Assembly: GCA_019192445.1 (NCBI GenBank)
Contig: JAHCMK010000009.1
Span: 62,001 to 126,000, forward strand
DNA: 64,000 nt
Direction: 5' to 3'
DNA from: Oceanococcus sp. HetDA_MAG_MS8
Lineage (GTDB): Bacteria; Pseudomonadota; Gammaproteobacteria; Nevskiales; Oceanococcaceae
A model generated the notes under the pieces. That model saw only the letters and a program-made list of their open reading frames with translations. It was not told the origin of the DNA and did no database searches. Shown one piece after another: positions 25,547 through 62,479 of the stretch (positions are counted from its first letter, which is position 1; the number at the start of each line of letters is the position of its first letter). The position numbers and the translations under genes were made by a program.

Positions 25547-26539
25547 ATGACATGCAGGCTTTTCGCAGCCAGTGGCTTAGTTTTGGCGGTGAGCTTGGTC
25601 GCATGCGGGGGCGGCAGGCCGCCCATCGCGAATGGCCAAGGCGCAGCGGCTGTGGATCCAGAGACACTTTGCCTGAGCGAAGACTGCGCAAGCCGCAGCA
25701 TGGTGGGTGTGGTGCCCGATGCCGAAAATATCCTCTATGCCAGCAATGGGCAGGTGTTTGTCAGCGGTGGAACCAATGTTTTTGAGGTGAGGGCGGCAGC
25801 CGACCAAAGCTACACGCTACGGCCCTTGGCGGAGACTGCATGCAACTTCACGGGTTTGGCCGAACGCGCCAATACCGTTTATGCCGCCTGCGGGGATCAA
25901 AGCCTCTACGCCATGTCATTGCTTGGCGGCACTCAGCTGCAAAAAATTCATACCTTGGATGGTATGAGTTTGCCCAATGGTATGGCCGTCGGGCCGGATG
26001 ACTGCTTGTACATCGTGGATGGACCGCTGTCCGGCACCGCTCTGCCCAGCCCCAAAATTGAACGGGTATGCTTGAGCTTTGATCCTTTGGCCGTGGCCAG
26101 CCAAGAGACTTGGCTGGATCAAGGGCTTGAACTGCCCAATGGCATCGCCGCCTATGGACAGGGTATTGTGCTCACAAACAGCACCCTCTTGCTGCCATCC
26201 AGCCAAGTGCTCTGGATTGGCATGAATGACCAAGGCCTCCCCACAGAGCCCACCGTGCTGTACAGCCGGATCAGCATTTTTGATGACCTTAGCGTGGTGG
26301 GCGACCATATTTTGGTCAGTGACTTCGCGGGCGGAAGCGTGTTTATGCTCAACGCCAATGGTGAGGTGGTGCAGGAGACTGCGGTGCAGGGTTTTGCCTT
26401 CCCGTCTGCATTACAGCTGGTGGGGCCGCCTCAGTTTAATCTCGGCGATATTCTGATCACCGAAAAGGGAATTTTGGGAGACACGCAGTCCTCCTTTGGC
26501 AATGTGCTCACCTTGTTCAGGCAATCTCCGGCCGAGTAG
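25547..26539 (+). CDS. Lipoprotein with SMP-30/NHL-like beta-propeller
   Basis: 330 residues. The ATG at 25547 is chosen because GGAG sits 6 bases upstream; in-frame TTG and ATG further up are less well placed. The signal ends in LVAC followed by GGGR, part of a motif shared with four other lipoproteins in this window. Repeated blades with LPNGMAVGPDDCLYIVDG and LPNGIAAYGQGIVLTN resemble SMP-30/gluconolactonase or strictosidine-synthase-like propellers. Substrate unknown; it may be structural rather than catalytic. Confidence 0.7.
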   Translation: MTCRLFAASGLVLAVSLVACGGGRPPIANGQGAAAVDPETLCLSEDCASRSMVGVVPDAENILYASNGQVFVSGGTNVFEVRAAADQSYTLRPLAETACNFTGLAERANTVYAACGDQSLYAMSLLGGTQLQKIHTLDGMSLPNGMAVGPDDCLYIVDGPLSGTALPSPKIERVCLSFDPLAVASQETWLDQGLELPNGIAAYGQGIVLTNSTLLLPSSQVLWIGMNDQGLPTEPTVLYSRISIFDDLSVVGDHILVSDFAGGSVFMLNANGEVVQETAVQGFAFPSALQLVGPPQFNLGDILITEKGILGDTQSSFGNVLTLFRQSPAE

Positions 26540-26571
26540 CTTCGGCTTGGCGTGTGCAGATTCCGGTGCCG

Positions 26572-27216
26572 CTACCGCGCCTTGGGCTGTAGCATCCAGG
26601 CCTGCTCCAGCGCGGGTTGCTGCCCCTTGAGACCGCCCGCAACGCTGCGCTCGGCTAAGGCTTGAACCGCGAAGCTATCTCCATACAGGTGCTCGATGTC
26701 TGCAAGCGGGACGGAGAACGGAGGCCCCGTCATGGCGCTCTGGTCATACGCAAAGCTAATCAAAAACTGAATAGTACTTGCGGCGAGGTCTTGGAGTTTG
26801 CGCGCATAGGCTTCGCGCGTCTGAGCCGGAAGAGCCACCAAGGCCGCGCGGTCATATATCGCGTCAATGGGGCCTAGCTGCGCGGGGTCTAAGGCAAAGA
26901 TGTCTCCCACGTAGATATCCAAGCCAGGGGCTTGGTACAGATCTAAAGCCCCGAGCTCGCGAATATTGGCCGGCAGCTTGAGTTCGGCGAAGAGCTCTTG
27001 TACCGCTTGGGCGCTGAACTCCACGCCAACCACCGCATAGCCCTGGCGCAGAAACCAGTGGATGTCACGGGTTTTACCGCACAGGGGCAAGAACACACGA
27101 GCCGATGCTTGCAGGCCGATGTGGTCCCAGTAACGGGTGAGTAAAGAGTTGGCCTGACCTTCGTGAAAGCCGATCTCACGCGCTTGCCAGCGCTCTAGCC
27201 AAAAGCTTTTTTCCAC
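26572..27216 (-). CDS. tpm: Thiopurine S-methyltransferase
   Basis: SAM-dependent methyltransferase known in Pseudomonas for methylating selenium and tellurium compounds. FWLERWQAREIGFHEGQ at the start and RVFLPLCGKTRDIHWFLRQGY (SAM site) are close family matches. A GTG at 27216 gives 214 residues, near the usual ~218; an in-frame start at 27264 would add about 16 residues with no family counterpart. Convergent with the beta-propeller lipoprotein gene. Confidence 0.88.
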   Translation of the reverse strand: MEKSFWLERWQAREIGFHEGQANSLLTRYWDHIGLQASARVFLPLCGKTRDIHWFLRQGYAVVGVEFSAQAVQELFAELKLPANIRELGALDLYQAPGLDIYVGDIFALDPAQLGPIDAIYDRAALVALPAQTREAYARKLQDLAASTIQFLISFAYDQSAMTGPPFSVPLADIEHLYGDSFAVQALAERSVAGGLKGQQPALEQAWMLQPKAR

Positions 27217-27271
27217 AAGCCTGCCGGGAAGCCGAAAACCTTCACAGTGTAGTGCGTGGAGCAAAGCTGAG

Positions 27272-27326
27272 CCCCGCGACCATCATGATCGCGGGGGCAA
27301 TCCCTCAGACCATCGCGAATGAGGGA
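27272..27326. terminator. Two tandem hairpins
   Basis: CCCCGCGA/TCGCGGGG (27272-27296, 9-base loop) and TCCCTCA/TGAGGGA (27301-27326, 12-base loop), both perfect. On the minus strand they lie just beyond the end of the hydrolase gene and the adjoining gene remnant, so they may end that transcript. No clear T-run. Confidence 0.5.
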
Positions 27327-27327
27327 C

Positions 27328-27525: not shown

Positions 27526-27530
27526 CTACG

Positions 27531-28679: not shown

Positions 28680-28711
28680 GCGCAGTCCCCTCCGCTGCTC
28701 CATGTCTTGAA

Positions 28712-30379
28712 ATGAGTCAGAAGAAAACCCTCAGACCGACATTTTCCCGCCGTGACGTCCTTCTGAAAGGCTCCGCTGCAGCCTTGGTGGCTCCCTTTGC
28801 TAGCGGCTGTAATGGCGGTCGAAGTCTGACCGCCTCCAGGCGCGACGGCACACCATTAGAAAGCCCTTTCAAGCATGGTGTGGCCTCGGGTGACCCTCTA
28901 CAGGACCGGGTCATTCTCTGGACCCGTGTGACCCCCACCGCCGACAACATGGGCGACATTCCGGTCATCCTCACCGTTGCTTCCGACCCCGAGCTAACGC
29001 AGGGCGTGATGGTGCAGGCCGCGACGGCGCCGGCTGCGCGCGATTGGACTGTGAAAGTCGACTTTGCCGGGCTGGCGCCGGGCCAAAGCTATTACTACCA
29101 GTTCGAGGCTATGGGCTTTCGCTCCGTGGTCGGCAGAACTAAAACTGCGGGCTTGGATCCCGACAATGTGCGCTTTGCGGTGACGAGCTGCTCCAACTTT
29201 GCAGCGGGGTACTTCAACGCCTACCGATTTATTGCCGAGCGTGATGACTTGGATATGGTCTTGCACTTGGGCGACTACCTCTACGAATACAACAGTGGTA
29301 GTGGTGACCGCACGCACATGCCGCAGCGGGAAATCCTGACCCTGGCGGATTACCGCGAACGCCATGCCCAGTACAAGGCCGACCCCGACTGTGCCGCTGC
29401 GCATGGTGCTCACCCTTGGGTCACGGTATGGGACGACCATGAGTCCACCAACAACTCCCGCCGGGACTCCGCGCAGAACCATACCGAGGGTGAGGAGGGA
29501 GTATGGGAAGTGCGTAAGGCTTGGGCGCAACAAGCTTATGACGAGTGGATGCCGATCCGCCTTCCAGAGCCTGGTAACCCCAACAAGATTTGGCGCAAGT
29601 TCCAGTTCGGCAGCCTGATGGAGCTGTGGATGCTGGATACGCGGTTGTTTGATCGTGACGACGAAGCGGATCTGGCCTCTAATGAGGTCTTCGACCCCGA
29701 CCGCCGGCTCATCGGCCCAGAGCAGCGCGATTGGCTGCTCGACGGTATGCGCAATAGCACCGCCACCTGGAAGCTGATCGGTCAGCAGGTGATGTTCGGC
29801 CCACTCAAAGCCACGGTGTTACCAGACATTGATCTACCGCTAGGCGCCTTGGGTGAGCTGCCCATTCCTATCCTGGGTGGAGGCGAAGGCACCCGCGATG
29901 TAGTAATCAATGCCGATCAATGGGACGGTTATCAGGCCGAGCGCAAGGCCATCTTTAATCACATTCGCCAGAACAATATCGAGAATATGGTGGTACTAAC
30001 CGGCGATATTCACAGCTCCTGGGTGATGGACTTGCCACGTGATCCGGACAATTTGCTGGACTACAACCCGCTCACCGGTCAAGGGTCTTTGGGAGTGGAA
30101 TTTGTGGCCACTTCGGTGACGTCATCGGGCTTTGATGCGGTGCCTGGTTTGACGCAGCTACCAGAGCTGATCAACGCCATCCGCCTCACCAACCCGCATA
30201 TGCAATACATCGAAGGCACCCGGCGTGGGTATTTGGTGATGGATGTGAGCCGCGATCAAACCCGAGGCGAGTATTACTACGTGAGTACTATCGCCGAGCG
30301 TGGGGGAAGTGAAGAGCTGGCCGCGCAATACAGTGTTGCCGCTGGAGCCAACCACATTACCCGCGGGGGACTGGCTTAG
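28712..30379 (+). CDS. phoD: PhoD-family alkaline phosphatase/phosphodiesterase lipoprotein
   Basis: 555 residues. A twin-arginine signal SRRDVLLKG is followed by a lipobox ASGC at Cys33, so it is a Tat-exported lipoprotein. PhoD family motifs are clear: HGVASGDPLQDRVILWTRV, SCSNFAAGYFNAY, LHLGDYLYEY, VWDDHE and LTGDIHSSW. The enzyme (calcium/iron-dependent in known relatives) releases phosphate from phosphoesters. The Cys is followed by NGGR, shared with four other lipoproteins here. Preceded by a good Pho box. Confidence 0.93.
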   Translation: MSQKKTLRPTFSRRDVLLKGSAAALVAPFASGCNGGRSLTASRRDGTPLESPFKHGVASGDPLQDRVILWTRVTPTADNMGDIPVILTVASDPELTQGVMVQAATAPAARDWTVKVDFAGLAPGQSYYYQFEAMGFRSVVGRTKTAGLDPDNVRFAVTSCSNFAAGYFNAYRFIAERDDLDMVLHLGDYLYEYNSGSGDRTHMPQREILTLADYRERHAQYKADPDCAAAHGAHPWVTVWDDHESTNNSRRDSAQNHTEGEEGVWEVRKAWAQQAYDEWMPIRLPEPGNPNKIWRKFQFGSLMELWMLDTRLFDRDDEADLASNEVFDPDRRLIGPEQRDWLLDGMRNSTATWKLIGQQVMFGPLKATVLPDIDLPLGALGELPIPILGGGEGTRDVVINADQWDGYQAERKAIFNHIRQNNIENMVVLTGDIHSSWVMDLPRDPDNLLDYNPLTGQGSLGVEFVATSVTSSGFDAVPGLTQLPELINAIRLTNPHMQYIEGTRRGYLVMDVSRDQTRGEYYYVSTIAERGGSEELAAQYSVAAGANHITRGGLA

Positions 30380-30394
30380 GTCCTCATAGCGGGC

Positions 30395-37376: not shown

Positions 37377-40657
<3,281 letters not shown>

Positions 40658-40924: not shown

Positions 40925-43315
40925 GTGACCATCGTACTGACCACCTTCCAGCCTCGTGCTGGCCATCTACCTGCATCTGCAACACCTGCATCAACTCGTG
41001 ACGAAATGCAGTTGCCGGCGGCTGAATGCCTTACTCGGCATGGGCTTTTGCGGCGGCTGGGTCTGGCCACTGTCATGAGCGCCACCTTGCTGGCCGGCTG
41101 TGGCGGAGGCCGCCCCGCGGCCGCTCCTGGAGGCGGGGCGGGCAGCGGCAACGCACCTCCTCCTGTCGCGGGCCAAGCTTTGGGCAAGTACGACCTGTTC
41201 AACCAATGTTGGGTGATGAAGGCCGACGGTAATTACGTCACCCGGGCGGGTGATGCCTTCTTTGCCAATGGTCAATCGGCAGATGATGCCGAGCGCTTTT
41301 ACATGCGGGCCGCCAATTTGGCGCGCTACTTGTTCTACACCACCGATGAGGCTCTGCTCACGGCCAGTGGCTCCGCTGTATCCACCGTGCCCCAGTCCGC
41401 TCCTGAAGATGGGTCGGATTGGACCTTCTCCGAAGACGGCGCCGTGCTCAACGCGGCGGCGCTAGGCGGTAATCTCGCGGTAGACACCGATGGTGTGCTC
41501 GTCGTTGGCTCAACCCCGGCGGCTTTGCAATTTGAGCCCGCAACGGGCTGTGCCGAATATCCCGAGATGCCGCTGGGTGTAATCGGTACCACCTTCAAAG
41601 GCGACATCAACAAACCCCTACTCGGCTTTGCCGAGGTTCATACCCATATGGCCATGGGCAGTGAAATGTCCGACGGCAGCGGCAATGTTGGTCCCTCCGC
41701 CGGTGGGGTGATGTATGGCCAAGCGGTCAACCGCTTTGGCGTCACCGAGGCCCTCAAAGACTGCCAGGATCTGCATGGCCCCAATGGCATCACCGACCCC
41801 GAAGCGCTGATTCTGGATATGGAACCGGGGCGTACACATGACACCCAGGGTTGGCCCACTTTTGTGGACTGGCCCTTCCATGACTCTATGCTCCACCAGC
41901 AGATGTACTGGCGCTGGGTGGAGCGGACCTGGATGGCCGGGCTGCGGTTGATGACCATTCATGGAACCAATATCGAAGCGCTCTGCCAGGTGGCCCAGGC
42001 ATTAGGACCCACACGTGGGCAGAACCCGGCCGAGGTGGAGTGCCGGGATATGCCGGTGGGTGTGCAGCAGGTGGAGTACCTCTACGAGATTCAGGACTAC
42101 ATCGACGCCCAGTACGGCGGCCCCGGAAAAGGCTTTTACCGCATTGTTGGCAGCCCCGATGAGGCCCGGCAGGTGATTGCCGAGGGCAAGCTGGCAGTGG
42201 TGCCGGGCCTGGAGTTCTCCAACCTCTTTGGCTGTAACGTGACCTTCCTGCCCGATGGCAGCGAAATTCCCCAATGTGATCGTGCTCAAATTGATGCCGA
42301 AATTGATCGCATCTGGGATTTGGGTGTGCGCCAGGTCTTCCCCTATCACGACATCGACAGTGCTCTGGGCGGCGCCGGGTTGTTCGGCACCTCCAACGTG
42401 CTGGAGTTCTTCAACCTCACGGGTACAGGCCGCTTCTTTGAAACCTATAACTGCCCGGACGGCGGCAATGGCGACAGCTACTTCTTTGATGCCGGCATGA
42501 CCAGTTTCGCGGACCCGCTCACGCTGGGTAATGACCCCTTAACGGATTTGCTGTTGGGCATTGCCGATGGTCTCACGCCGACCCTGCGTAGTGGTCGCCA
42601 ATGCAACAGCCGTGACGTGACCGAGCTTGGCATCTACGCCATCGACAAGATGATGAAAAAAGGCTTTGTCATCGATATCGATCACGCGGAATTGCGCAGT
42701 AAGCAAATCATGCTGGACTACGCCGCCACCACCGAGCCCAGCTATCCGATGGTGTCAGGACACAGCGCTCAAGGCGGGCTGACCAATGCTCAAGCCCGAC
42801 AGCTCATCGCGCAGGGCGGCATCATTTATCCCATCAACCAAAACGGCAAGGGTCATGTGGATTTCCTGGCCAAGCTGGCACCGCAGTGGGAGCAGTCCGG
42901 CACTGACCGACCCTTCTCCGCCGGTTATGGGGCCGATGCCAACGGTTTGCGCACCCTGCCGGGGCCGCGTGGCCAGGGCCGTATTGCCGAGACGGCGCCG
43001 GTGAACTACCCCTTCCAGATGTTCCAGGGTGAGGGCTGGGGTCCACAGTTCGATGGTATTGCGCCCATCACCGTGGAGTTGCTCGCCATCCCCGACGGCA
43101 AGATTTGGGATGTGAACGAAGCCGGTATGTACCACTACGGTCTCATTCCGGACCTGATCGAAGAAACGCGCATCGAGGGCGGCCAAGAGGCCCTGGATTC
43201 CTTCTATAACTCCGCCGAGACCTACTTGCAGATGTGGGAACGCACTTTGGACGCGGCGGCGGATGCGCGCACCAAGCCGGTACCGGAAACCGTGCCCGAC
43301 GTGGTTCTGCGGTGA
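40925..43315 (+). CDS. Lipoprotein metal-dependent hydrolase (dipeptidase/amidohydrolase-like)
   Basis: 796 residues from a GTG with GAGGAG 5 bases upstream. The N-terminal extension before the signal is long; LLAGC gives the lipid Cys at residue 59, followed by GGGR (the shared motif) and a Pro/Gly spacer. Amidohydrolase-type metal residues are visible: FAEVHTHMAMGS early, VPGLEFSNLFG, PYHDID, GFVIDIDHAELRSK and VSGHSAQGG, resembling membrane dipeptidase (M19) enzymes. Substrate unknown. A structured RNA leader precedes it. Confidence 0.72.
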   Translation: MTIVLTTFQPRAGHLPASATPASTRDEMQLPAAECLTRHGLLRRLGLATVMSATLLAGCGGGRPAAAPGGGAGSGNAPPPVAGQALGKYDLFNQCWVMKADGNYVTRAGDAFFANGQSADDAERFYMRAANLARYLFYTTDEALLTASGSAVSTVPQSAPEDGSDWTFSEDGAVLNAAALGGNLAVDTDGVLVVGSTPAALQFEPATGCAEYPEMPLGVIGTTFKGDINKPLLGFAEVHTHMAMGSEMSDGSGNVGPSAGGVMYGQAVNRFGVTEALKDCQDLHGPNGITDPEALILDMEPGRTHDTQGWPTFVDWPFHDSMLHQQMYWRWVERTWMAGLRLMTIHGTNIEALCQVAQALGPTRGQNPAEVECRDMPVGVQQVEYLYEIQDYIDAQYGGPGKGFYRIVGSPDEARQVIAEGKLAVVPGLEFSNLFGCNVTFLPDGSEIPQCDRAQIDAEIDRIWDLGVRQVFPYHDIDSALGGAGLFGTSNVLEFFNLTGTGRFFETYNCPDGGNGDSYFFDAGMTSFADPLTLGNDPLTDLLLGIADGLTPTLRSGRQCNSRDVTELGIYAIDKMMKKGFVIDIDHAELRSKQIMLDYAATTEPSYPMVSGHSAQGGLTNAQARQLIAQGGIIYPINQNGKGHVDFLAKLAPQWEQSGTDRPFSAGYGADANGLRTLPGPRGQGRIAETAPVNYPFQMFQGEGWGPQFDGIAPITVELLAIPDGKIWDVNEAGMYHYGLIPDLIEETRIEGGQEALDSFYNSAETYLQMWERTLDAAADARTKPVPETVPDVVLR

Positions 43316-48609: not shown

Positions 48610-49854
48610 CTAGGGCAGAACTGCGTCTAGTGAGGGGCGCGGTCTTATTCTTGCGCCGTCTCTGAGGTTCTGGCTCGGGTAGCTCACCACCTTGTCACCA
48701 GCGTTTAAGCCCTGCAGAACTTGAGCGCGTACTTCATTGCTGTGCCCAATACTGACCGGGGACAAGCGCACTCGACCCGCGTCCGCAAGGTATACCGCCC
48801 AGCGCCCAGGTTGTCCGACCAAAGCGCTCACCGGCACGCTGAGCACATCGGGATGCTGCCAGATGGTGATCGCGGCGAAGACATGAAAGCCATGGCCCAG
48901 GCCCCTGCGTTGTTCACGTGGCGAGCTTAAGTCCACTATGACATCCACGCGCTGCTCTTCGATGCCCAAGGCGGATACCTTGGTTCGCCCTCGTGGTTCG
49001 ATTCGCCGTACAGTGCCCCGTAACTCTCCCGGTGCACCCCAGTCGCTGATTCGAACCTGGGCTCCGGGCTGCACCTTGACCGCATCCGTCGAGAGCAGAT
49101 CGACCACCACCTCCAAATCCTGCGGGTCGCCGATCTCAATGAGTGGCGCGCCCATGGTGACCGTGGTTTCACTTTCTTCCAGAACATTCAAGATGCGACC
49201 GCTAATGGGGGCCACTAATGCCAGCGTTAACTGTGAATCTGCCCCAGGTTTGATCTCGGGGGAATGCAGCAGGGCCTGGGCGCGTTCTAGGTTGGCTTGA
49301 TGAACGCCTACACTGGCCCTCGCAGTCTCCAAAGTGGCGGTAGCCGTACGCGCCGACAACTCTGCGGTTTCCAGCTCGGCCTTGGCCAGTGAACCTTTCG
49401 CGGCGAGCTTGCGTGCGCGATCTGCGTCGACCTGGGCGTGAGCTGCATGCGCCTGAGCGCTACGGAGTTCTGCGTGAGCCAATTCCAATTGTGCCTGGGC
49501 ACTGCGAACTTGAGCTGCGGCTTGGCTTTGAAGGCGGGTGTCGAGAAGGCCCGGCGTAGCGGGGAGGATGCGCGCGACAATGGTTTCGCCCTGAACCACT
49601 GTGTCCCCGACGCTGGCCTGAATTCTGAGCAGTGTTCCGGCGACGGGTGCAGACACGCGATACACGTTGCGCACACGCGTGATGCCATTGTCGCGGATGG
49701 CGATACCTAGTGGAGCGCGCTGAACCGTCGCCAACTCCACCACCACGGGCTGTGGGCGAAACGAGTATGCCAACAAGGCGATGAGAAGTAGAGCCAGACC
49801 AATCATCACCGTATTCCGAATGCGGGTGGGCTTGCTGCTGTGCGCCATGGTCAT
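48610..49854 (-). CDS. Periplasmic adaptor of MacAB-like efflux
   Basis: 414 residues, RND/MacA-type membrane fusion protein: N-terminal membrane helix, lipoyl half (VAGTLLRIQASVGDTVVQGE), Ala/Glu-rich coiled hairpin, second lipoyl half, beta-barrel and membrane-proximal domain. Last gene of the operon with the ABC ATPase and permease, 9 bases downstream of the permease. Confidence 0.88.
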   Translation of the reverse strand: MTMAHSSKPTRIRNTVMIGLALLLIALLAYSFRPQPVVVELATVQRAPLGIAIRDNGITRVRNVYRVSAPVAGTLLRIQASVGDTVVQGETIVARILPATPGLLDTRLQSQAAAQVRSAQAQLELAHAELRSAQAHAAHAQVDADRARKLAAKGSLAKAELETAELSARTATATLETARASVGVHQANLERAQALLHSPEIKPGADSQLTLALVAPISGRILNVLEESETTVTMGAPLIEIGDPQDLEVVVDLLSTDAVKVQPGAQVRISDWGAPGELRGTVRRIEPRGRTKVSALGIEEQRVDVIVDLSSPREQRRGLGHGFHVFAAITIWQHPDVLSVPVSALVGQPGRWAVYLADAGRVRLSPVSIGHSNEVRAQVLQGLNAGDKVVSYPSQNLRDGARIRPRPSLDAVLP

Positions 49855-49863
49855 TGCTCCGGG

Positions 49864-52251
49864 TTATTCGCGGGTTTTGAGCACCGCAATCAGGTCCAAT
49901 TGATCGATTCGCCGGCGTACGATCAATGCTGAGAGAGATGTGGCGAGCACAATCACGAGCAAAGAAAAGCCCATCGTGCTGGCCGAAACGGTAAGAGGCA
50001 TACGGAACATTTCAGTATTGAGTGCGATTGTCATTCCCCATGCTTGCAGCCAGCCCAGGCCTGCTCCCAAAGGGAGTGCAATGATGGTGAGCAGGGCCAG
50101 CTCCCCGAGCAGGATGTAGGAAACGTCGGCTCGTGAGAGGCCGAGTACGCGCAGGCTGGCCAGCTCACGACCTCGCTCAGAAAGCGATATGCGGGCGTTG
50201 TTGTACACCACGCCTACGGCGATGAGGCCTGCAAATAGACTGTTGAAGAAAATGTAACTGCCCAGGCTTTTATTGAGATTGGCGTACAAATTTCGCTCTG
50301 CTTCCCGGTGCATGCTAATGCCGGCAATCAAGGGCATTTGTTTGAGTTCGGCAGCCAGCTCGGTGTCATAGCCTGTATCTACCAGCATATGCACACCGTT
50401 CATGCTGGGAGTCTGATGCAGGTATCGGCTGAGGCTGTCGATATGCATATAGGCTCCCGTGCCCAGGTAGGTGGTCACGATGCCGACCACCGGAACAGAA
50501 AATGCGGGCTGATGGAACTCACGGAGCTGCACGCGAATAGAGTCACCTTGTTCAACCTGGAGTAACTGCGCCAGCTTGGAAGTGAGCACCAAGCCGTGCC
50601 GGGGAATGACAACAGAGCCCTGCATGGTGTTGATCAGTCGCGCGAGGGTTGGCTGCTGCACCAAACCAAGAATGCTTTCGCGGCGCCGGATCGGGCCGTT
50701 ATGGAGGGTGGCGGTGATCGCTAAGAAGGGTTCGGTCGAGCGCACCCCCGGTTCACGAAGCAGTGCAAATCGCTCATGCAACGGCCGTGGTTGATGCAGA
50801 TAAGCCGTCACATCCTGCCGATTTGCAAACTGGAAACTCCAGTCGATCATGTGTCGAATTCCGTCCCATGAAAAACTGGCGCCAACGAGCAGGGCCATCG
50901 AGGCAGCGATGCCTGTACAGGTCATCATTGCCCGCTTGGGGTGGCGTAGCAGGTGTCGCACAATCATCCGGCTGGGTTGGTCTAGATGACGCAAAATGCC
51001 GGCGCCCAATCTGGACAAAGTGCTGTAGTCGGTAGGTTGCGGTGGCGTCATTGCCACTGCGGGGTTGAGCGCTGCGGCACCACGCACAGCGACCGCGGCT
51101 CCGGCCAATGCAACCGCCATGCTGGCGAGCCCAGTAAACAGCAGTAACGCCGGAGGCATGGAAAAAATCAAATAGGGAAACTGAAAATACTCCATGTACA
51201 ACAGGCTGAGCCCACGCCCCATCCACGTTCCTAACCCCAGGCCCAGACCAATGCCGATGCTGGCAATACTGGCGACGAACTTAAGGTAGTGGCTGGCCAC
51301 CTGAATATGGGTATAGCCAAAGGCCTTCATTAGCCCAATTTGTTCGCGTTCCGTTTGGATCAGGCGCGAGAGCACCAAGTTCAGCAAAAAGGCGGCAACA
51401 ATGAGGAATATAGGGGGGAGAACTCTGGCCATGACCGCGAGCTGCTGGATCTCGCTATCCAACATTTTGTCGGAGACTTGCTCTCGCTGCGGGAATGCCC
51501 CAGTGCTCCCATAGGGCTTCAGAACATGATCAATCGCGCGCAGGATCGCTTCTTCGGATTGCGTGGTGCTTTTTAGGATTAAGGCCTGATTGAAGCCACC
51601 AACCATGTCGGTGGCACCGGCCAAGGCCTGCCTATGCATCCAGATCACACCAAACCCTGCGGGAGTTGGCACCAGCTCGCCGGGTGCAATGGCGTAGACG
51701 AACTCGGGTGAAATCGCCAACCCCACGATGATCAATGGGTGCTGCACACCGTGTATTAACGCGTGCACCTCATCGCCGACCCGGAGCCCGTGGGCTTTGG
51801 CGAAGCCCTCCAGCAGCAAAACTTCACGCGGCTGAGCCTGACGGGGCCAATGGCCTTGACGTAACACAAGGCGGTTGATGCCGCCCGCGTCCTGAGCCGG
51901 CAGGGACAGCGCCACGCTAGTGATGGGCCGATCGGTGCCAGGCACGCTGGTCAGCGCCGGGCTGACGATCCGTGTTGTTACTCGCCGCACCCCGGGAATG
52001 CTTTCCAAACTGCAAGCCATTCCAATGGGAGCACGGGTCACGGGAGCAATGATGTCAGCGAGTTGGTAGCTGGCGTAGTAGTTAGCGCGTGTGCCTTGTA
52101 GCGCTTGCAGCATGCCTTGGCTGGTCACAAAAACACTTACACCGCAGGCCATCACCACCGCAATGGCCAATGCTTGCCCGCGCACGCGCCAGAGGTCCCG
52201 CAGGAGTTTGCGGTCCAGCGTCGACACCCAAGACGGAAATGTCCCGGTCAT
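49864..52251 (-). CDS. FtsX-type ABC permease (duplicated, LolC/MacB-like)
   Basis: 795 residues. First half has a membrane helix, a ~240-residue periplasmic MacB-type domain and three helices of an FtsX domain; the second half repeats the plan, with the final FtsX domain (SERGRELASLRVLGLSRADVSYILL). This doubled architecture is common in uncharacterised ABC permeases that pump or extract lipophilic molecules. ATPase encoded 3 bases upstream. Confidence 0.87.
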   Translation of the reverse strand: MTGTFPSWVSTLDRKLLRDLWRVRGQALAIAVVMACGVSVFVTSQGMLQALQGTRANYYASYQLADIIAPVTRAPIGMACSLESIPGVRRVTTRIVSPALTSVPGTDRPITSVALSLPAQDAGGINRLVLRQGHWPRQAQPREVLLLEGFAKAHGLRVGDEVHALIHGVQHPLIIVGLAISPEFVYAIAPGELVPTPAGFGVIWMHRQALAGATDMVGGFNQALILKSTTQSEEAILRAIDHVLKPYGSTGAFPQREQVSDKMLDSEIQQLAVMARVLPPIFLIVAAFLLNLVLSRLIQTEREQIGLMKAFGYTHIQVASHYLKFVASIASIGIGLGLGLGTWMGRGLSLLYMEYFQFPYLIFSMPPALLLFTGLASMAVALAGAAVAVRGAAALNPAVAMTPPQPTDYSTLSRLGAGILRHLDQPSRMIVRHLLRHPKRAMMTCTGIAASMALLVGASFSWDGIRHMIDWSFQFANRQDVTAYLHQPRPLHERFALLREPGVRSTEPFLAITATLHNGPIRRRESILGLVQQPTLARLINTMQGSVVIPRHGLVLTSKLAQLLQVEQGDSIRVQLREFHQPAFSVPVVGIVTTYLGTGAYMHIDSLSRYLHQTPSMNGVHMLVDTGYDTELAAELKQMPLIAGISMHREAERNLYANLNKSLGSYIFFNSLFAGLIAVGVVYNNARISLSERGRELASLRVLGLSRADVSYILLGELALLTIIALPLGAGLGWLQAWGMTIALNTEMFRMPLTVSASTMGFSLLVIVLATSLSALIVRRRIDQLDLIAVLKTRE

Positions 52252-52254
52252 GAG

Positions 52255-52968
52255 TTACCAATGAATGGCATTTGCGGGTACCGGGTTGGAGATGGGGCGG
52301 TTCTCCTTGATACGGCCATCCGCCATAATCAGTACCCGGTCTGCCATGTCGGCAATGCTGGCGTTATGGGTGATTACTAGCGTTGTTGTGTTGAGATGCC
52401 GGTTGGCGTCAGCCAGGGCTTGTAAGACCAAACAACCGGTCTTGCTGTCCAGGGCGCCCGTGGGCTCATCGCAGAGTAAAACGGTGGGCTGCTTAGCAAT
52501 GGCTCGCGCAATGGCTACCCGCTGCTGTTCGCCGCCCGAGAGCTGCGCTGGGAAATGATCCATCCGTTCGCCTAAGCCCACCATTCGCAGTGCCTGTGCG
52601 GCGGGCATCGGATTCTTGGCGATCTCGGTCACCAACTCCACATTTTCCAGGGCGGTCAGGCTGGGGATAAGGTTGTAAAATTGGAACACAAAGCCCACAT
52701 GATCACGACGAAAACGTGTGAGCTCAGCGTCGCTACTCGCGGTTAACTCGGTGCCGGAAAAACGGACTTGACCGGAGCTAGGTGTATCCAGCCCTCCCAA
52801 AATGTTCAGCAGCGTGGATTTACCGCAGCCCGAGGGCCCCAGCAACACGACAAACTCGCCCGCTGGCAGGCAAAGGTCGACCCCACGCAGCGCGTGTACC
52901 TGTGCCGCGCCCTGACCGTAGGCTTTGTGCAGGTTCACTACCTCAAATGCCCAGTCTGACTTTGTCAT
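52255..52968 (-). CDS. ABC ATPase (LolD/MacB-like)
   Basis: 237 residues with all motifs intact: Walker [10 protein letters not shown]-loop, signature LSGGEQQR, Walker B LLCDEP, D-loop and His in VITHN. Partners the FtsX-type permease. Unlike the exporter at 32928-34694 this NBD looks fully active. Confidence 0.92.
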
Positions 52969-53220: not shown

Positions 53221-55296
53221 GTGAGCGAGACCACCAAGGATGCGATCCTGCCTTTGCCATTGGGGCCAGGTCGCATTTACGACGAGATCAGCCCCAATCT
53301 GGTGGGCACCGGCTATGGCTTTGAGGTGCAGGCCTTATACCCCTTTCCCAAGCTGTATTTTCGGGCCAGCTATGAGGAACAGCAGCGTCGATATCAGGAG
53401 TTGACCGAGGCGCTGGAAGACAACTGGTACAACTACGACCTCATTCCCGGAGCAGTGGTGCATGGCAATCGTGGGTCTTATCAGGTGCAGCGCAATTCCA
53501 GTTGGGCTCTGCGCGGCAGTGATGACAACCGCAGCAGCTTTGCCCAGGAAGACCAGTTTGGTACGGGGGACGACTCTGACCCCGGTGAAGATGGCATCGA
53601 TATTTACGAGCCGCTGTTCTACTACTTTGACCGCAACTGGCATCTGTGGCTGACCAACACCCAGATCACCAACAACATTACGCGCTTGCTTTCGGTAGTT
53701 ACCGAGAATCTGACCGATGGTGGCGGGCCGAATTACTTTCGGATTAATACCCTCGACCCCATCTTGAGTTTGGCGCCGGCCACACGCGCCCAAGACATCG
53801 ACACCTTTGATTTCTATCCGCCACTGCCAGATCGCTATCCGCGGCAGCCATTTGATGCCGATTTTCGCAATGATGATGTCATTGGCTGGGTACAGCTTGC
53901 CCATGCCTCGCCTTTTCCGCGGATTGCTCCATACAAAGCTCACCTACCCAATTTCAAAGTGACCTCGGAGATGTTCCGGCGCACGGCGGAGTTTTGGGAT
54001 GATGATCTGGACCAAGCCATGGCCCAGGGTCGGGTCTTCGTGGTGGACTACAAGGAATACCAGGAGATGAACCTGCGCCCCCCAGCCACTAACTCGGCAG
54101 GCGGACGCTTCTACACGCCCATCGCCATGTTCGCCGTACCGCGCGGCGGCGGGCCGCTCAAGTTGATCGCCATCCAATCCACCCAGCACACGCCGGCCAA
54201 TGAGGCCGAGCGCCAAGCCTGGAAGCTGAACAACCAACAGCCGGCTGATCGGCCTCTGTCGGACATTCTCACCCCCACCGACGATTACTGGTCCTGGCAA
54301 ATGGCCAAGACCCTGTTCATGAGCATGTATGCCATGAGCGGCGTGATTGATCACTTGTCCATGCATGTGTATGTGGCGCCAATTGCGGTTGGCTTTTATC
54401 GCAGCATCCCGCGCCAGCATCCCCTGAGGGCATTGCTAGAGCCGCACTTCTTATCGCTGATATCCAATAACCATTCCGGCATCTTCTGGGATACCGGAAC
54501 CCAGATGATCAACGACAACCATTCCTATGGGCAGACCGACCAAGGCTTGCTGACAGGGATGGCGGACAAAGTCAGTGGCTGGACCGGTAAAACCTTTTTG
54601 GATGCCACGGTACAACGGGCCGGCTTCTACCATTTTGTAGAACACAGCACCCCGATTGACCGCAGCCAGCCCAATGCCTTTGCGGCTATCGAAGACTTCC
54701 CGCAGCTGGACGATAACGGCCTCATTCCGGTTATCCAGCGCTGGGTGCGGAACTACCTTAGTTTGTATTACCGCTCCGATGCCGATGTGCGCGAGGACCT
54801 TGAGCTACAGAATTTCTGCTCGGATGTAGCCCTCAACGGGCTTGTGAACGGCTTTCCGGAGGCGACGCCCAGTTTTGATTCCTTGGTAGATATTGTGACG
54901 CGCATCATTTATTGGATGAGCGTCAACCATGCTTTGGAAGCGACGTTGGGTTGTATCAAGCTAGGTCCTATGGGGTACTGGTCCGACCGTGTGCCGCGCA
55001 ATGATGAAACCAAAACGGAAGCCGACTGGTTCAATATTTTGCCGCCCATCAATGTCGGTTTGGCCATCTTCTGCGCTTCCAGGTTCTTCGTGGATTTGCC
55101 TCGGGAGTGGTACCGCTCCTTGGGTCGATTCCCAGAAGGGCAGTTCATGCACGACCGGCGCGTATACGCGCATCTACAGGCGTTTCAGAAAGAACTGTTG
55201 CAGATAGACAATCGCATTCAGGAGCGCAACCTCACACGCCGCTGGCCTTACACCATGATGCGCCCCGGCACCATGACCTGTAGCCCTTGGAATTGA
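53221..55296 (+). CDS. Lipoxygenase-family protein with altered iron-site residues
   Basis: 691 residues. The plant/animal lipoxygenase core is clear: RQHPLRALLEPHF, IPVIQRWVRNYLSLYYRSD and IIYWMSVNHA align with soybean-type sequences. No export signal is seen. In the ligand helix the family's H-x4-H reads DHLSMH, giving Asp377 where the first iron His is expected, with His378 next to it and His382 kept. His570 is kept, but the Asn/His four residues on is Ala574, and the C-terminal Ile ligand is Asn691. GTG start with GAGGAG 8 bases away. First gene of a four-gene operon. Confidence 0.85.
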   Translation: MSETTKDAILPLPLGPGRIYDEISPNLVGTGYGFEVQALYPFPKLYFRASYEEQQRRYQELTEALEDNWYNYDLIPGAVVHGNRGSYQVQRNSSWALRGSDDNRSSFAQEDQFGTGDDSDPGEDGIDIYEPLFYYFDRNWHLWLTNTQITNNITRLLSVVTENLTDGGGPNYFRINTLDPILSLAPATRAQDIDTFDFYPPLPDRYPRQPFDADFRNDDVIGWVQLAHASPFPRIAPYKAHLPNFKVTSEMFRRTAEFWDDDLDQAMAQGRVFVVDYKEYQEMNLRPPATNSAGGRFYTPIAMFAVPRGGGPLKLIAIQSTQHTPANEAERQAWKLNNQQPADRPLSDILTPTDDYWSWQMAKTLFMSMYAMSGVIDHLSMHVYVAPIAVGFYRSIPRQHPLRALLEPHFLSLISNNHSGIFWDTGTQMINDNHSYGQTDQGLLTGMADKVSGWTGKTFLDATVQRAGFYHFVEHSTPIDRSQPNAFAAIEDFPQLDDNGLIPVIQRWVRNYLSLYYRSDADVREDLELQNFCSDVALNGLVNGFPEATPSFDSLVDIVTRIIYWMSVNHALEATLGCIKLGPMGYWSDRVPRNDETKTEADWFNILPPINVGLAIFCASRFFVDLPREWYRSLGRFPEGQFMHDRRVYAHLQAFQKELLQIDNRIQERNLTRRWPYTMMRPGTMTCSPWN

Positions 55297-55639: not shown

Positions 55640-55648
55640 GAGAGATTG

Positions 55649-56293
55649 ATGAAAAAAGTCCACAGAGCCAAGGCCCTTGTGATCGCGGGCCTGTTGGCTG
55701 GAATCATGCTCAGTGCCTGTAACGGGGGGCGCGATGGCGCCATTGGCGGGGTGGATGTGCGTGACCAAGAATTGCTACCGATTGTCGACAAAGGCGGCAT
55801 TCAGGGACGAGTGAATGGTGCGCTCTACGCCTTTGACGGAGATATGCGGCTGACCGTGGCCACGGCCGACACGCGCAACCTACAGGCACTCAATCGGGGC
55901 AACGATGCCGAACACTGGGCCATCAACCAATTGCCTCTACGCACAGGTGAGTACCCATGTGGCAGCAATGACTTGCAGCTCAGTTTGCAACGAGTCGGCC
56001 AAGACCATTTGAGCACGGCAGGGCCAGCTGGCCAGTGCCAGGTGGTAGTCACGCGTGCGAACAGCCGTTTCCTAGAGGGCTACTTTGCCGCTGAGTTTGC
56101 CGCTAACAACGGAGCACGGACACGGGTGGAGGAAGGCCGTTTTCGCTTTGAGCTTGCCCATGTGATTCCGGACTCTGACGCCGATGGCCTTTCCGACGCC
56201 GACGATAACTGCCCCTTTGACGTCAACCCGGCCGAGGAGGACGGCAACAACAATGGTGCCGGTACGGCCTGCGATGCCTCAGAACAGGGTTAA
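55649..56293 (+). CDS. Lipoprotein with thrombospondin type 3-like calcium repeat
   Basis: 214 residues. Lipobox LSAC then NGGR (shared motif). A ~130-residue beta-rich domain of unknown family is followed by DSDADGLSDADDNCPFDVNP, a TSP type 3 calcium-binding repeat, and a GNNNGAGTACD end. AGGAGAG ribosome site 5 bases before the ATG. Sits in the lipoxygenase operon. Confidence 0.78.
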   Translation: MKKVHRAKALVIAGLLAGIMLSACNGGRDGAIGGVDVRDQELLPIVDKGGIQGRVNGALYAFDGDMRLTVATADTRNLQALNRGNDAEHWAINQLPLRTGEYPCGSNDLQLSLQRVGQDHLSTAGPAGQCQVVVTRANSRFLEGYFAAEFAANNGARTRVEEGRFRFELAHVIPDSDADGLSDADDNCPFDVNPAEEDGNNNGAGTACDASEQG

Positions 56294-57354: not shown

Positions 57355-58593
57355 ATGATATTAAGAATGACATACGCTTTGATAATATTATTAATGGCCG
57401 CATGTGAGAGTGCGCCAAGTGGTATTGACGACGAAGCACGCTCTATCTTGTCGCAACCTGTAGAAGGTGAGCCACTTGAGCTACGAAAGGCTGCTGAAGA
57501 AGCAGGCTTTTATTGGGGGGCGATGGGTTTTGGGTATGATCTGACTGACCCAAACTACGGCCAAGAATTCAGAGAAGCACTCGCAAAGAACTTCTCAATT
57601 TTTTCTCCTGCGCTTGAACTGACCTTTCCCTTTGTCCAGCCTGAGCGGGGAGTATATTCATTTGAAGCAGTTGATGCTCTCGCTGACTTTGCTCGCGCTA
57701 ATGGACAAAAAATGCGTGGCATTGTGGTTATCTGGCGGGAGGATTTGTCCGCGTATCTTGGAGAGAGTCCGACTCGCGAGGAGGGGATCGCGTTACTGCG
57801 AGAGCATATTCATACGGTCATGGGCCACTATCGAGAGTTTTATCCCGACGTGTTCGAGCAATGGGATGTCGTTAACGAGGCATTCCGTAGCGACGGTACC
57901 CTTAGAGCCTCTGACTGGCAAAAGGCAATCGGTGATGATTTTGTTGAACTCGCTTTTCGGTTTGCTCATGAAGCATGGCCTGAGGCAGAGTTATACTATA
58001 ACGACTTTTATGAGCCGGTTTTCAACTTGGGTGGCAACTTCATAAATGCTTTCGGGCAAATTGACCCCGATGCGATACGGCCTTTAGCACCACTAGGTCC
58101 CATTGGGCCACTAGCCTCTTGCGAGCAATCGGCCAAGTGTATGGGTGTAAAGAAAATGGCGGAGGACTTTGTCGCGCGCGGGGTCCCGATCCATGGAATT
58201 GGTTTCCAGGGACATATTGCCAATGTTATTGCTCCAGATTATGGGTCGTTTGCCAGCTGGGTTGAAGAATTGGGTTTACGGTGGGCTGTCACCGAACTCG
58301 ACGTACCGTGTGCGCGTTCGGCTACTTATCCGGTTGGAGGAGAAATCGTCACCTTCCTGAACGGAGCCATATGCTTTGAGAATCAGCGGCGAATATTTCA
58401 CGATATTGTTAAGGATTGTGTAGATTCAGCCGCCTGCGACACCGTGGTGCAGTGGGGTGTTGCGGACCCCTTCAGTTGGTGGCAAGGTCTCTCATCCGGG
58501 GCCCTTGGTGAAGCATTAGCTCTAGACGATAATTACGAGTACAAACCCGCTGCACACGGAGTTGTTGAGGCTCTTCGTGGCGGCGTAAGGTAA
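57355..58593 (+). CDS. GH10 endo-1,4-beta-xylanase lipoprotein
   Basis: 412 residues. Lipobox MAAC, then a (beta/alpha)8 GH10 domain with the acid/base Glu175 in WDVVNEAF and the nucleophile Glu314 in VTELDVP. Codon use is clearly more AT-rich (many TTA, ATA, GAT) than in the neighbouring genes, a sign of recent acquisition. The 287 bases upstream hold no gene. Confidence 0.9.
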   Translation: MILRMTYALIILLMAACESAPSGIDDEARSILSQPVEGEPLELRKAAEEAGFYWGAMGFGYDLTDPNYGQEFREALAKNFSIFSPALELTFPFVQPERGVYSFEAVDALADFARANGQKMRGIVVIWREDLSAYLGESPTREEGIALLREHIHTVMGHYREFYPDVFEQWDVVNEAFRSDGTLRASDWQKAIGDDFVELAFRFAHEAWPEAELYYNDFYEPVFNLGGNFINAFGQIDPDAIRPLAPLGPIGPLASCEQSAKCMGVKKMAEDFVARGVPIHGIGFQGHIANVIAPDYGSFASWVEELGLRWAVTELDVPCARSATYPVGGEIVTFLNGAICFENQRRIFHDIVKDCVDSAACDTVVQWGVADPFSWWQGLSSGALGEALALDDNYEYKPAAHGVVEALRGGVR

Positions 58594-59663: not shown

Positions 59664-60370
59664 TTGTTCACCCCAATAGCCGTAAAGTCCCTCGGCAGCT
59701 GTTTTGCAATTGCGAATGGGCCTTCTTGTGTAATTGCACCTTTAGCCCTGCCGGAAGGTATGGTTTTGCCAAAAAGCTGGCGTTTAATTCGTCTTCCGGC
59801 GAGCACACCTTTGAAGGCGAGTAACGTGGTGGATTAGTCATGGTGCCTTCTCCTTGAGCCCCAGAAATGGCTTGAGAAAACTCTCGCTCCAGCTACGCTA
59901 TAGAGCAAGCCCATCGCAGGTCTTGCCCTAGCCCAACCTCCTAGGCTGATGACATTCCAGTTTTTTGCAGTCCCCAAAGGGAGCTCCTGGTTTATCTGCT
60001 GGCACATTGGCCCCAGGATTTTTTCTGGTACTCATCACGCCCAGCCTCATCCCCTTCTCTGAGGATGATTGGTTGACTACTTACACCAAATCCGGCTATC
60101 CAACTGCGAAGATCATCCGCGAAAACTGGTCAAACAGAGTATCCAGGACGCGAAGCAAAGTCGAATACAGGCCAACACGTGGCTGACCTGGCGGTAGCCT
60201 TGCTATAGCCACCCGCCGGAAATCACGGTGCGGGCGGGTGGCCTCAATAGCCGACCATTAAGCAATGGACTATAGGTGTTCACTTTTAGCTACACTCTGG
60301 GAAAAAATCCATGCCAATACACTCACTGTTCGCTGCACGCCAAAATTCTGACGAGCCAGTGTTGCCTGCG
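59664..60370. other. Gene-poor stretch
   Basis: No convincing coding sequence; short frames here (for example 59965-60186) show no family and no ribosome site. A 10-base perfect hairpin GCCACCCGCC/GGCGGGTGGC with a 15-base loop (60208-60242) lies beyond the end of the minus-strand di-haem gene and may terminate it. The AraC gene's promoter should be at its left end. Confidence 0.45.
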
Positions 60371-62479
60371 CTACAAGGTTTTCAGGTATTCGATAATTGC
60401 CTTGCGTTCTGTGTCGGTTAGTGCGTCGGAGAACTCGTGGCCGCTGTTACTGTTGCCAAGTATGCGCGTGTCAAAAACTAGGCGGCGATCCAATGCGTTT
60501 GGGGTTGGATCTACAGCAGCCAGAATCCCGGTATAACTCACCATGTCGTACAGGAAATTTGTCATGATTTGGTACATTGATGGACCTTCATCACGAAGTG
60601 GATTGCAATTGAATAGTGGGTCGCCAGGGAGACTGTCACAACCGAGTTCATAATGTTTCCAACCAACGGCTTCAAAATCGTATCCCGTGGATAAACTTTG
60701 GTCAAAGCCTACAATGCCCGTATCCTCACGAAGCTGACGCTGCCAAATTTCTTGTCGTTTTTCGCTATTGAGGACCGCCTCAATTGTTGGGACTGACCCG
60801 TTATGAAAGTATGGCGCGGTAGCCCAAATGCCATAAAGTGGTGGTGCTTGATAACCTTGACGTTTCTCCCATCCACATACTCCGGTTGGACGATTTGGGA
60901 ATAGATCATCGATAGTTTCTGTTAAATAATCTTTTTCTTCTGGTGGTACGTATCCTGGCACGCCGTCAGGGTATGCCCAATAACTGGTGTCCCAGCCCTG
61001 GCGTAGGCTCGTTGTCAGCATGTCCACGCGTGCGCGGTCAGTGCCAATAACCTCTAGGCTCGATAAATGTGCTGCTACGCCTTCGAGCGAGGGGTCTTCT
61101 AAGTAATTTGTATCGTTGACGTATCGAGGGGAATACGCGCCATGACAGCTTGCACAAGACCCATTGCCTCCATCTGGGCGTGGCGCATTGGCGTTGCTAG
61201 GCTCCTCCCATAAGTTCTTAGAATGGAAAAGAATCGCTCCAGCCTGCGCTAACCCTCTATCTATAACACCTGGGTATTTCGGTGACTCTAGGCTTAAGAA
61301 AAAGGCGTCCAAATGTTGATCCCACTTTTCGACGCGCTGGCGATACAAAGCGCCATCAGCAGTCACAAGTTGGTCTAACTCTCCGGGTCCGGCAGCCATG
61401 ATAATTCGGGTGCTGGCGTTGGATAAGCCTGCATCGAAGAACTTTCGTGGCCTGGAGCCGATATTCCACCACGCTGGAGTATCTTGGGTGTGGGCGAGCG
61501 GATGTGATACGTCGAATACGCCTTGGATGCCATACGGCGTAACCATTTTTGCCGGGTTTGGGTTTAAGCCTAGGGAGTCTATATCGAGAACTGTATTAAT
61601 AAACTCGAAACCACCTACAGCGTTGTTCTGACCACGCTGACGGATGCCCATGTTGTATACGATGTTTTGATCAAATGGAGGTGTGATTTCGCCGAGCGGT
61701 GTACCAACGAAAGGCGAGCCGTCCGCGGAGACCTGGGGCATATCGTAGTTATTATTTCCGAGCCCGATATTATCAAGCCCAATGATTACTGGCTCACCGG
61801 CCTGTGGTTCGCCAATCTGGCCACCGTGGCACTGGAAGCAGGCTGCAGTTTGAATATTACCTGTCCACAGACCTTGGTCATCACGGCCTTGACGATAACC
61901 AAGTGGAAGTTGGCCAGAGCCACCATTAGTTGTGTTTGGGTCCTCTCCGGGAAGTGGGTAGGGGTTGTGGAATGGAGCATAGTTTAGGCCGTAACGCAAG
62001 GTATAGAGTTCGTCAAACCTGTCTGGTCTCTCGTTAAACCCCCATTTTTTCCATGTGTCGTTATAGGCTTCTGCGGTAATTTGGCCGACAGGTAGTTCGT
62101 CGAGTAGAAACTTTAAGCCAAGGTCACGCCGTCTTCGCCATTCTCCACAAGTTTTGGGTGCCTGTTCTTCGGCCGGCAGGTTTTGATGACAGTTTTCCCA
62201 AAACGCGTTGAAATAAACCGCTCGATTCGCATTAACTCCCTCGACGACCAAGCTCCGTGGGTCGGGAGGTAGCAAAGTATCGTCTGGGGAGTTGGCGCAA
62301 ACCACTGCCCAACGGTGGCTGCCTCGTTTTCCGCCTAACAAGTCATTGGCGGCAAAGTTGTCTGGCCGTGAGTTTGTACGACCATTAATGACCCCTCCGG
62401 ATTCAGGTCGCCCGCCGTTGCACGCAGTCAATATCAGTCCCATACAAACGCACAGTAGGACTCGGGCGAAGTTATTCAT
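60371..62479 (-). CDS. Di-haem peroxidase/RoxA-like lipoprotein
   Basis: 702 residues. Lipobox LTAC then NGGR (shared motif). Two c-haem sites, CFQCH near residue 212 and CASCH near 440, and PYFHNGSVPTIEAVLNSEKR, the peroxidase/MauG C-terminal motif. Ordinary cytochrome c peroxidases have about 330 residues; this length is closer to RoxA/RoxB rubber oxygenases, but I cannot confirm that. AT-rich relative to the chromosomal core. Divergent from a TetR gene. Confidence 0.78.
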   Translation of the reverse strand: MNNFARVLLCVCMGLILTACNGGRPESGGVINGRTNSRPDNFAANDLLGGKRGSHRWAVVCANSPDDTLLPPDPRSLVVEGVNANRAVYFNAFWENCHQNLPAEEQAPKTCGEWRRRRDLGLKFLLDELPVGQITAEAYNDTWKKWGFNERPDRFDELYTLRYGLNYAPFHNPYPLPGEDPNTTNGGSGQLPLGYRQGRDDQGLWTGNIQTAACFQCHGGQIGEPQAGEPVIIGLDNIGLGNNNYDMPQVSADGSPFVGTPLGEITPPFDQNIVYNMGIRQRGQNNAVGGFEFINTVLDIDSLGLNPNPAKMVTPYGIQGVFDVSHPLAHTQDTPAWWNIGSRPRKFFDAGLSNASTRIIMAAGPGELDQLVTADGALYRQRVEKWDQHLDAFFLSLESPKYPGVIDRGLAQAGAILFHSKNLWEEPSNANAPRPDGGNGSCASCHGAYSPRYVNDTNYLEDPSLEGVAAHLSSLEVIGTDRARVDMLTTSLRQGWDTSYWAYPDGVPGYVPPEEKDYLTETIDDLFPNRPTGVCGWEKRQGYQAPPLYGIWATAPYFHNGSVPTIEAVLNSEKRQEIWQRQLREDTGIVGFDQSLSTGYDFEAVGWKHYELGCDSLPGDPLFNCNPLRDEGPSMYQIMTNFLYDMVSYTGILAAVDPTPNALDRRLVFDTRILGNSNSGHEFSDALTDTERKAIIEYLKTL

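Follow-up and report, generated by a model that had tools for sequence, protein, structure and literature searches.

A Gly-Gly-Arg tag beside the lipidated cysteine of Oceanococcaceae lipoproteins: carriers, range, and possible role in surface sorting

Tagged lipoproteins of the window

It is still an open question how bacteria distinguish lipoproteins bound for the surface from those of the periplasm; a sorting motif linked to the protein GspN was published only in December 2025. Here we describe a short tag, Cys-x(1-3)-Gly-Gly-Arg (the GGR tag), on predicted lipoproteins of Oceanococcus sp. HetDA_MAG_MS8, starting from a 64,000-nucleotide stretch of contig JAHCMK010000009.1 (positions 62,001 to 126,000; GC content 58.8 %)—referred to here as the window. 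Lipoproteins were predicted by our own rules rather than by SignalP, with a start codon, a hydrophobic run, and a lipobox required; lipidation is a prediction throughout. Of nine candidate lipoproteins in the window, five carry C-[G/N]-G-G-R behind a hydrophobic segment and a lipobox. The original prediction, made from the letters of the window, had listed these sites and their Arg codons, and all five translate as claimed; the other four candidates are those that it had named as lacking the motif.

The first tagged protein (25529..26539, plus strand; 311 amino acids from the Cys on) has its CGGGR tag at 25604..25618 on the same strand; earlier read as a propeller, it matches no Pfam or NCBIfam family. 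The second, at 28712..30379 on the plus strand, is a PhoD-like phosphatase lipoprotein (PF09423, 1.7e-112; PF16655) with a twin-arginine translocation (Tat)-type signal, SRRDVLLK, and a CNGGR tag at 28808..28822, also plus. The third (40925..43315, plus; CGGGR at 41099..41113, plus) has no Pfam match; its structure model, of low confidence (mean pLDDT, the predicted local distance difference test score, 55.5) and used for the fold only, best matches renal dipeptidase in the PDB (1itq_A, E 1.1e-7), with weaker trefoil matches (E 3e-3 and above). We read the product as an M19-dipeptidase-like lipoprotein, perhaps with an N-terminal beta-trefoil part. Six aligned relatives lie in the genomes G001 and G002 (L178, L182, L184, L190, L210, and L214), and G001 has four or more members of this tagged family with its M19-dipeptidase-like domain.

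The fourth, a small lipoprotein at 55646..56293 (plus; CNGGR at 55718..55732, plus), had been described as having TSP3-like repeats; it has no Pfam match and two NCBIfam matches far under the cut-off, one of them to a thrombospondin-3 type family. The fifth, at 60371..62479 on the minus strand with CNGGR at 62408..62422 (minus), is a RoxC-type di-haem lipoprotein (NCBIfam NF051462 RoxC, 1025.5 bits with a cut-off of 900; PF21419). A RoxB-like protein occurs in the same genome at L174:5591-7678 (877 bits, cut-off 900), and both proteins are tagged CNGGR; a named di-haem relative, L075, is truncated by a contig end and its start is unreadable. Elsewhere in the window, a PF00141 peroxidase of 770 amino acids lies at 37377-39689, and an HlyD-type protein, an FtsX/MacB-type permease, and an ATP-binding cassette ATPase stand in a row at 48610-52968 on the minus strand, adjoined by a lipoxygenase-family gene at 53221-55296. 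A lipoprotein of glycoside hydrolase family GH10 at 57355-58593 starts with CESA and has no tag.

Frequency, shape, and cargo of the tag

The genome, scanned as 20 contigs of 3,529,516 bases, was sampled without bias in 40 stretches of 20 kb (0.8 Mb) spaced arithmetically, none of them on the window's contig. Among the 67 lipoprotein candidates sampled, which include some false ones owing to our prediction rules, C-x-GGR begins three where 0.09 are expected and C-x(1-3)-GGR begins seven where 0.28 are expected; with residues 2-13 shuffled, neither count was reached in 5000 shuffles. The motif is thus commoner than composition predicts, as the original prediction had supposed. In this sample the residue after C-x-G-G is Arg three times, Gly four times, Ser twice, and Gln once. 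A DNA pattern for [G/A]-C-[G/N/D/S]-G-G-[R/S] found 22 places in the genome versus seven in a reversed control; 14 of the 22 are lipoprotein starts, all with Gly or Asn at +2, 13 with Arg and one with Ser at the end. A wider pattern (40 places versus 13 in the control) found Glu and Gln at +2 as well. In this genome C-x(1-3)-G-G-R is found on at least 31 predicted lipoproteins: 28 collected for further analysis, plus L020, L245, and L308.

The collection comprises 62 tagged proteins from three genomes (28, 17, and 17) and is incomplete—the tagged L020 and many pattern matches of G001-G003 lie outside it. Since it was gathered by motif, it cannot itself show that GGR is conserved, and its statistics are optimistic, as rows within homologous groups are not independent. 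One residue separates Cys from GGR in 56 tags (Gln 15, Gly 15, Asn 15, Glu 8, Ser 2, Asp 1) and two or three residues in the remaining six (e.g., GG, GQ, TP, or SPN); GGR starts at +3, +4, or +5. The C-[N/G]-G-G-R motif first described therefore stands in its Gly-Gly-Arg part, and its [N/G] part was too narrow, since Gln and Glu also follow the Cys. Two variants end in Gln: CQGGQ on a GH92 protein (L174:3049-5397) and CGGGGQ (L170:5093-6511). Proteins of G001 and G002 that are related by eye to the GH92 protein have CQGGR, and the Arg may therefore have been lost in the CQGGQ variant. The tag is not a copied DNA repeat, as had been claimed: GGR is encoded by 19 different 9-mers in 28 genes.

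The residues beyond GGR also depart from chance. Asp or Glu follows directly in 20 of 62 proteins (8.6 expected) and Pro in nine. Arg is absent from the next four residues in all 62 (11.7 expected) and present within residues 5-12 in 38 (22.0 expected), both counts lying beyond all 2000 shuffles. Within 25 residues after GGR the pattern [SA]R[DAS] occurs 19 times in the 62 proteins versus 6.0 expected (0 of 2000 shuffles), and five times in 67 other lipoproteins that have no GG start and are equally rich in Arg. The Arg total in the first 12 residues is not raised (41 versus 37.3; 480 of 2000 shuffles as high). It is thus the placement and context of Arg that differ, and not its number, and there may be a second, looser element of the tag besides GGR.

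The carriers had been called unrelated, and BLAST agrees: the 62 proteins fall into 34 groups with no match to one another over 150 columns at 1e-5, and those of this genome into 24. By Pfam and NCBIfam, the latter include penicillin amidases, galactose oxidase-like proteins, S15 and S9 peptidases, a subtilase, neutral ceramidase, GH31, DUF3604, a CehA/McbA metallohydrolase, a tannase-like DUF6351 protein, a gluconate dehydrogenase subunit 3-like protein, PhoD, RoxC, a RoxB-like protein, and LVIVD repeat proteins, along with several proteins that have no match. Tagged proteins are larger than other lipoprotein candidates, with a median of 703.5 amino acids (n = 28) versus 328 (n = 81; p 1.6e-6). 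Four tagged lipoproteins are clustered in one 14-kb stretch, L203 (G002:C1:350400-364500). Tat-type signals on three of the 62 proteins, together with c-type haem families on at least two, suggest that the cargo folds before it crosses the outer membrane; the type II secretion system (T2SS) takes folded cargo. Many of the tagged enzyme types act outside the cell, and the passages available of PMC10837239 call RoxA and RoxB extracellular.

Family range, penicillin amidases, and sorting genes

The tag is present in all four genomes of one family, f1, which we infer to be Oceanococcaceae. Lipobox-CxGGR matches in these genomes numbered 21, 43, 27, and 28, with 3, 8, 8, and 10 in reversed controls. 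A looser pattern that drops the residue at -3 gave no separation in the GC-richer genus mate G001 (46 versus 43 in the control) and 32 versus 11 in G000. A stricter pattern with Gln, Glu, or Lys at +2 gave 5, 17, 9, and 9 matches and no control match in any of the four. In the other 57 genomes of the order, the stricter pattern occurs zero to two times each (15 matches in 13 genomes versus 20 in the control), and none of the ten matches opened is a lipoprotein. Among 368 other genomes of the class, which share three with the order set, the pattern turns up once or twice in 47, for a total of 51 matches versus about 80 in the control. As far as searched—outside the family with the Gln/Glu/Lys form and within one class—the tag appears restricted to Oceanococcaceae.

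Penicillin amidases (PF01804), located by domain alone in 61 genomes of the order, provide a view of conservation that is independent of the motif. All 20 matches of the family were read, and 19 have C-x(1-3)-GGR; the untagged one, in G001, starts with CGGSGNSGDGG. Outside the family 37 of 92 matches were read—27 loci returned with the domain search and 10 picked over five families—and 13 of these were dropped for want of a lipobox. None of the remaining 24 lipoproteins is tagged (Fisher p 1.4e-11, a value that ignores relatedness). The outside starts are mostly rich in Gly, Ser, and Asp, such as CSSDxDDD, CGGGG(S/D), CGSDSDDD, and CGGSIGSD, and a basic residue is present between +2 and +6 in four of the 24. 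Over +2 to +9 they average 1.83 acidic residues versus 0.85 in the family, and 0.25 basic residues versus 0.95. The original prediction would have been damaged by orthologues without the tag in close relatives; among penicillin amidases, relatives inside the family keep it and those outside lack it.

A tree of 24 penicillin amidases calls for four changes to explain its nine tagged rows; in three places a tagged branch is sister to untagged proteins of another family (support 100/100, 96/99, and 100/99). The pairs are L245 with CNSGGR beside CGSDSDDD, L206 with CNGGR beside CGGSIGSD, and L231/L232 with CQSGGR beside CGSSTV; the tree tool warned of long branches elsewhere in the tree. Tagged branches beside untagged sisters in three places indicate separate gains of the tag by several paralogues. 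Descent of all tags from one ancestor was also considered, and is ruled out by the 24 groups in one genome and these separate gains. Enrichment, varied codons, unrelated carriers, and family-bound conservation together support the earlier claim of a tag selected at the protein level.

Genes for secretion and lipoprotein sorting were compared across the same order. In this genome gspG, H, I, J, K, L, M, and N are consecutive (L288:8316-14375). Of the 61 genomes, 58 have GspN (PF01203), including all four of the family, with the gene split over two contigs in G003; 57 have T2SSG, again including all four, with ordinary scores in the family. For LolB (G000:C3:456149-456571), the family has the four lowest scores of the 61 genomes (100.4, 96.3, 66.5, and 51.4 bits; next 108.4). 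Such ranks have a chance of 1.9e-6 if ranks are random; however, the four genomes share descent and the low scores count as one event. LolB of the window's genus is without a short stretch in the C-terminal half of the alignment. For LolA (G000:C7:155960-156376), the window's genus is lowest in the order (82.5 and 79.0 bits; next 115.5; one genome without a match) and the second genus of the family lies within range (122.8 and 122.5 bits). LolCE scores a little low in the window's genus (492.9 and 486.5).

Mean percent identity to other families, in selected rows, is 29.6 and 37.3 for LolA of the family versus 42.5 among the others, and 26.7 and 31.7 for LolB versus 38.2; one LolB row (G042) and one GspN row (G029), both translated in a wrong frame, were left out of the comparisons. 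These identities are lowered and that of GspN is not, and it is apparently the Lol side, not GspN, that has changed in Oceanococcaceae. A gene whose presence follows the tag, which the original prediction had proposed to look for, was not found among T2SSG, LolB, LolA, LolCE, and GspN, all of which occur across the order—GspN, for instance, is shared by the four family genomes with 54 of 57 from sister families. Among the genes checked, what tracks the family is divergence alone, in LolB throughout and in LolA for one genus.

Readings of the tag and known systems

For lipoproteins exported by the T2SS with GspN, Roberts, Gura, and Sandkvist (December 2025; PMC12802150) describe, in the sections available, GGG or ND(N/D) at +2 to +4 in a setting rich in G/S or N/D over eight residues, with G/D hybrid motifs in Burkholderia and Shewanella, and propose Lol avoidance and recognition by GspN. 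Most penicillin amidase starts of the sister families fit this motif, and related proteins carry GGR in Oceanococcaceae, which suggests that GGR may be an arginine dialect of a T2SS/GspN surface-sorting code. We give this reading an even chance, with both the T2SS route and the surface location presumptive. Signal peptidase II would cut before the lipidated Cys, and C-x(1-3)-Gly-Gly-Arg would then mark the protein for the T2SS, where GspN would probably handle the N terminus and its lipid; GspN is also one candidate for the protein that reads the Arg. Tagged lipoproteins would bypass ordinary Lol delivery to the inner leaflet and reach the outer face of the outer membrane. Sister families, Acinetobacter, Burkholderia, and Shewanella would write the same address with Gly, Ser, Asp, and Asn, and in Oceanococcaceae many such proteins would have been rewritten with Arg.

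Several observations weigh against this dialect. The published motif is uncharged or acidic and the Arg reverses its charge (PMC12802150, in the parts available), and in Escherichia coli a strong Lol avoidance signal is described as including the lack of basic residues by Asp at +2 (PMC6469965, in the passages available). The presence of GspN does not follow the tag, as 54 of 57 sister-family genomes have it; GspN of the family is not extra diverged (26.9 and 29.5 versus 28.3 % identity among sisters) and has no charge swap in the alignment, its three family-only columns being uncharged, although divergence or a swap might be anticipated if GspN had come to read a new residue. Some outside penicillin amidases have starts that are not rich in Gly, Ser, or Asp (e.g., CSRSDEKT, CNGASQVA, and CGDGQRFG), and in L322 of family f5 a GGR lies deeper in the protein, spanning residues 9-11 of CDGSGGSDGGRD. 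Within the Oceanococcus genome itself, starts rich in Gly, Ser, Asp, or Asn persist on 10 of the 67 sampled lipoproteins; the family has therefore not simply swapped codes, and both dialects coexist. The altered LolA and LolB could resolve the charge tension of an Arg tag: co-evolution of the Lol machinery with avoidance signals is reported as a suggestion of earlier work in the passages available of PMC6469965, and its link to Oceanococcaceae is conjectural. A wider version, which we hold only tentatively, is that the whole family rewrote its sorting code: an Arg tag, maybe in two parts (GGR and [SA]R[DAS] 5-12 residues on), would have replaced ancestral Gly/Ser/Asp starts on many paralogues, as either the cause or the consequence of the change in LolA and LolB, and its reader would be a factor specific to the family or a Lol/T2SS junction that has been retuned.

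The tag might instead lead to the surface through another outer-membrane translocator or flippase—Slam-type or family-specific—that reads Gly-Gly-Arg directly. That T2SS and GspN are widespread in the order, whereas the tag is limited to one family as far as searched, speaks for such a machine, as does a GspN that is not specially diverged; however, Tat-type and haem-bearing cargo argues for a machine that takes folded proteins, and no translocator gene was found, although no search aimed at one (Slam included) was made. We regard this route as unlikely. Alternatively, and in our judgment distinctly unlikely, the tag could act at the level of Lol, with an Arg close behind the lipid favouring or tuning release by LolCDE and altered LolA and LolB delivering the protein to the outer membrane without surface display. 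The four lowest LolB scores, the lowest LolA scores in the window's genus, and lowered LolA and LolB identities beside an unremarkable GspN and ordinary T2SSG scores would all suit this explanation; yet the second genus has LolA scores that are unexceptional, a single clade makes the coincidence count once, and housekeeping outer-membrane lipoproteins are untagged (LolB starts with CAIW, and a protein with CAHQ is one that we take to be MlaA-like).

Shedding of the enzymes by an Arg-specific protease, with one cut behind GGR and another at an [SA]-R-[DAS] site, is highly improbable. Small residues do precede the Arg, and the excess of [SA]R[DAS] described above would provide the second site, but cleavage does not explain a site 2-4 residues from the lipid, and linker Arg is no commoner than in other lipoproteins (0.95 in 20 residues versus 1.16 in 24). 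Pro or an acidic residue after Arg is poor for trypsin-like enzymes, and their frequency after GGR (9 and 20 of 62) weakens trypsin-like cleavage in particular. The least credible explanation is that there is no signal at all and that the pattern reflects local linker composition, common ancestry, or what Lgt, LspA, or Lnt prefer. Gly-rich lipoprotein starts are common, and 10 of the 67 sampled lipoproteins have starts rich in Gly, Ser, Asp, or Asn; but the tag is found on 24 unrelated groups in one genome, uses Arg specifically, replaces other starts in related proteins, and marks a subset of larger proteins only, where a processing preference should touch all lipoproteins.

Related enzymes with different starts in sister families, beside one family with a nearly invariant three-residue tag, amount to a natural experiment. 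The tag is easy to score, predicts dozens of putative surface enzymes from sequence, and directs attention to LolA, LolB, and GspN, any of which may read a sorting code. Short sorting motifs after the Cys are known. Our literature searches, which covered titles and abstract starts of open-licence papers, returned no description of such a tag, nor any arginine form that is fixed in one family and was gained separately by several paralogues.

GlyGly-CTERM/rhombosortase proteins have a C-terminal Gly-rich motif, a transmembrane segment, and a basic tail; by eye, no such basic tail is present in the last 12 residues of the 62 tagged proteins. Among RoxC di-haem proteins, to which the window protein belongs by its score above the cut-off, that of Oceanococcus atlanticus has the cleavage site LVA/C16NG and predicted membrane attachment, and the RoxC proteins studied have no rubber-cleaving activity; the passages available mention no shared tag (PMC10837239). 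Lol avoidance resembles the GGR tag in that residues just after the Cys set the destination and species differ—inner-membrane retention relies on Asp at +2 in E. coli and on positions +3/+4 in Pseudomonas—but these signals hold proteins in the inner membrane and their cargo is different (PMC6469965, in the passages available); the E. coli-type Asp at +2 is found in only one of the 62 tagged proteins. The lipoprotein export signal of Bacteroidetes, K-(D/E)2 or Q-A-(D/E)2 after the Cys, is likewise short, lineage-specific, and adjacent to the Cys of surface-type enzymes, and differs in residues, charge, and phylum (PMC5080379, in the parts available); neither form is present by eye in the 62 tagged starts. 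The original comparison with surface-export signals near the Cys is supported at the level of sequence, with surface display itself a presumption.

The closest likeness is to the GspN/T2SS lipoproteins, such as InvL of Acinetobacter baumannii and PulA of Klebsiella. The GGR tag is tighter than their motif and ends in Arg, and no sequence in the published table, as available, has Arg at +5 (PMC12802150). Of the 56 tags in which a single residue separates Cys from GGR, 15 have GGG at +2 to +4, as do two CGGGGR tags; the other forms are QGG, NGG, EGG, SGG, and DGG, and none is ND(N/D). By our own prediction rules the tagged proteins have the signal peptide with lipobox and Cys of these lipoproteins, and a gsp operon with GspN is present in the Oceanococcus genome as well. 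In both sets a short motif stands right after the lipidated Cys, the carriers are a minority of lipoproteins that includes many hydrolases, and the motifs overlap in Asn or Gly at +2 and Gly at +3/+4 (PMC12802150, in the sections available).

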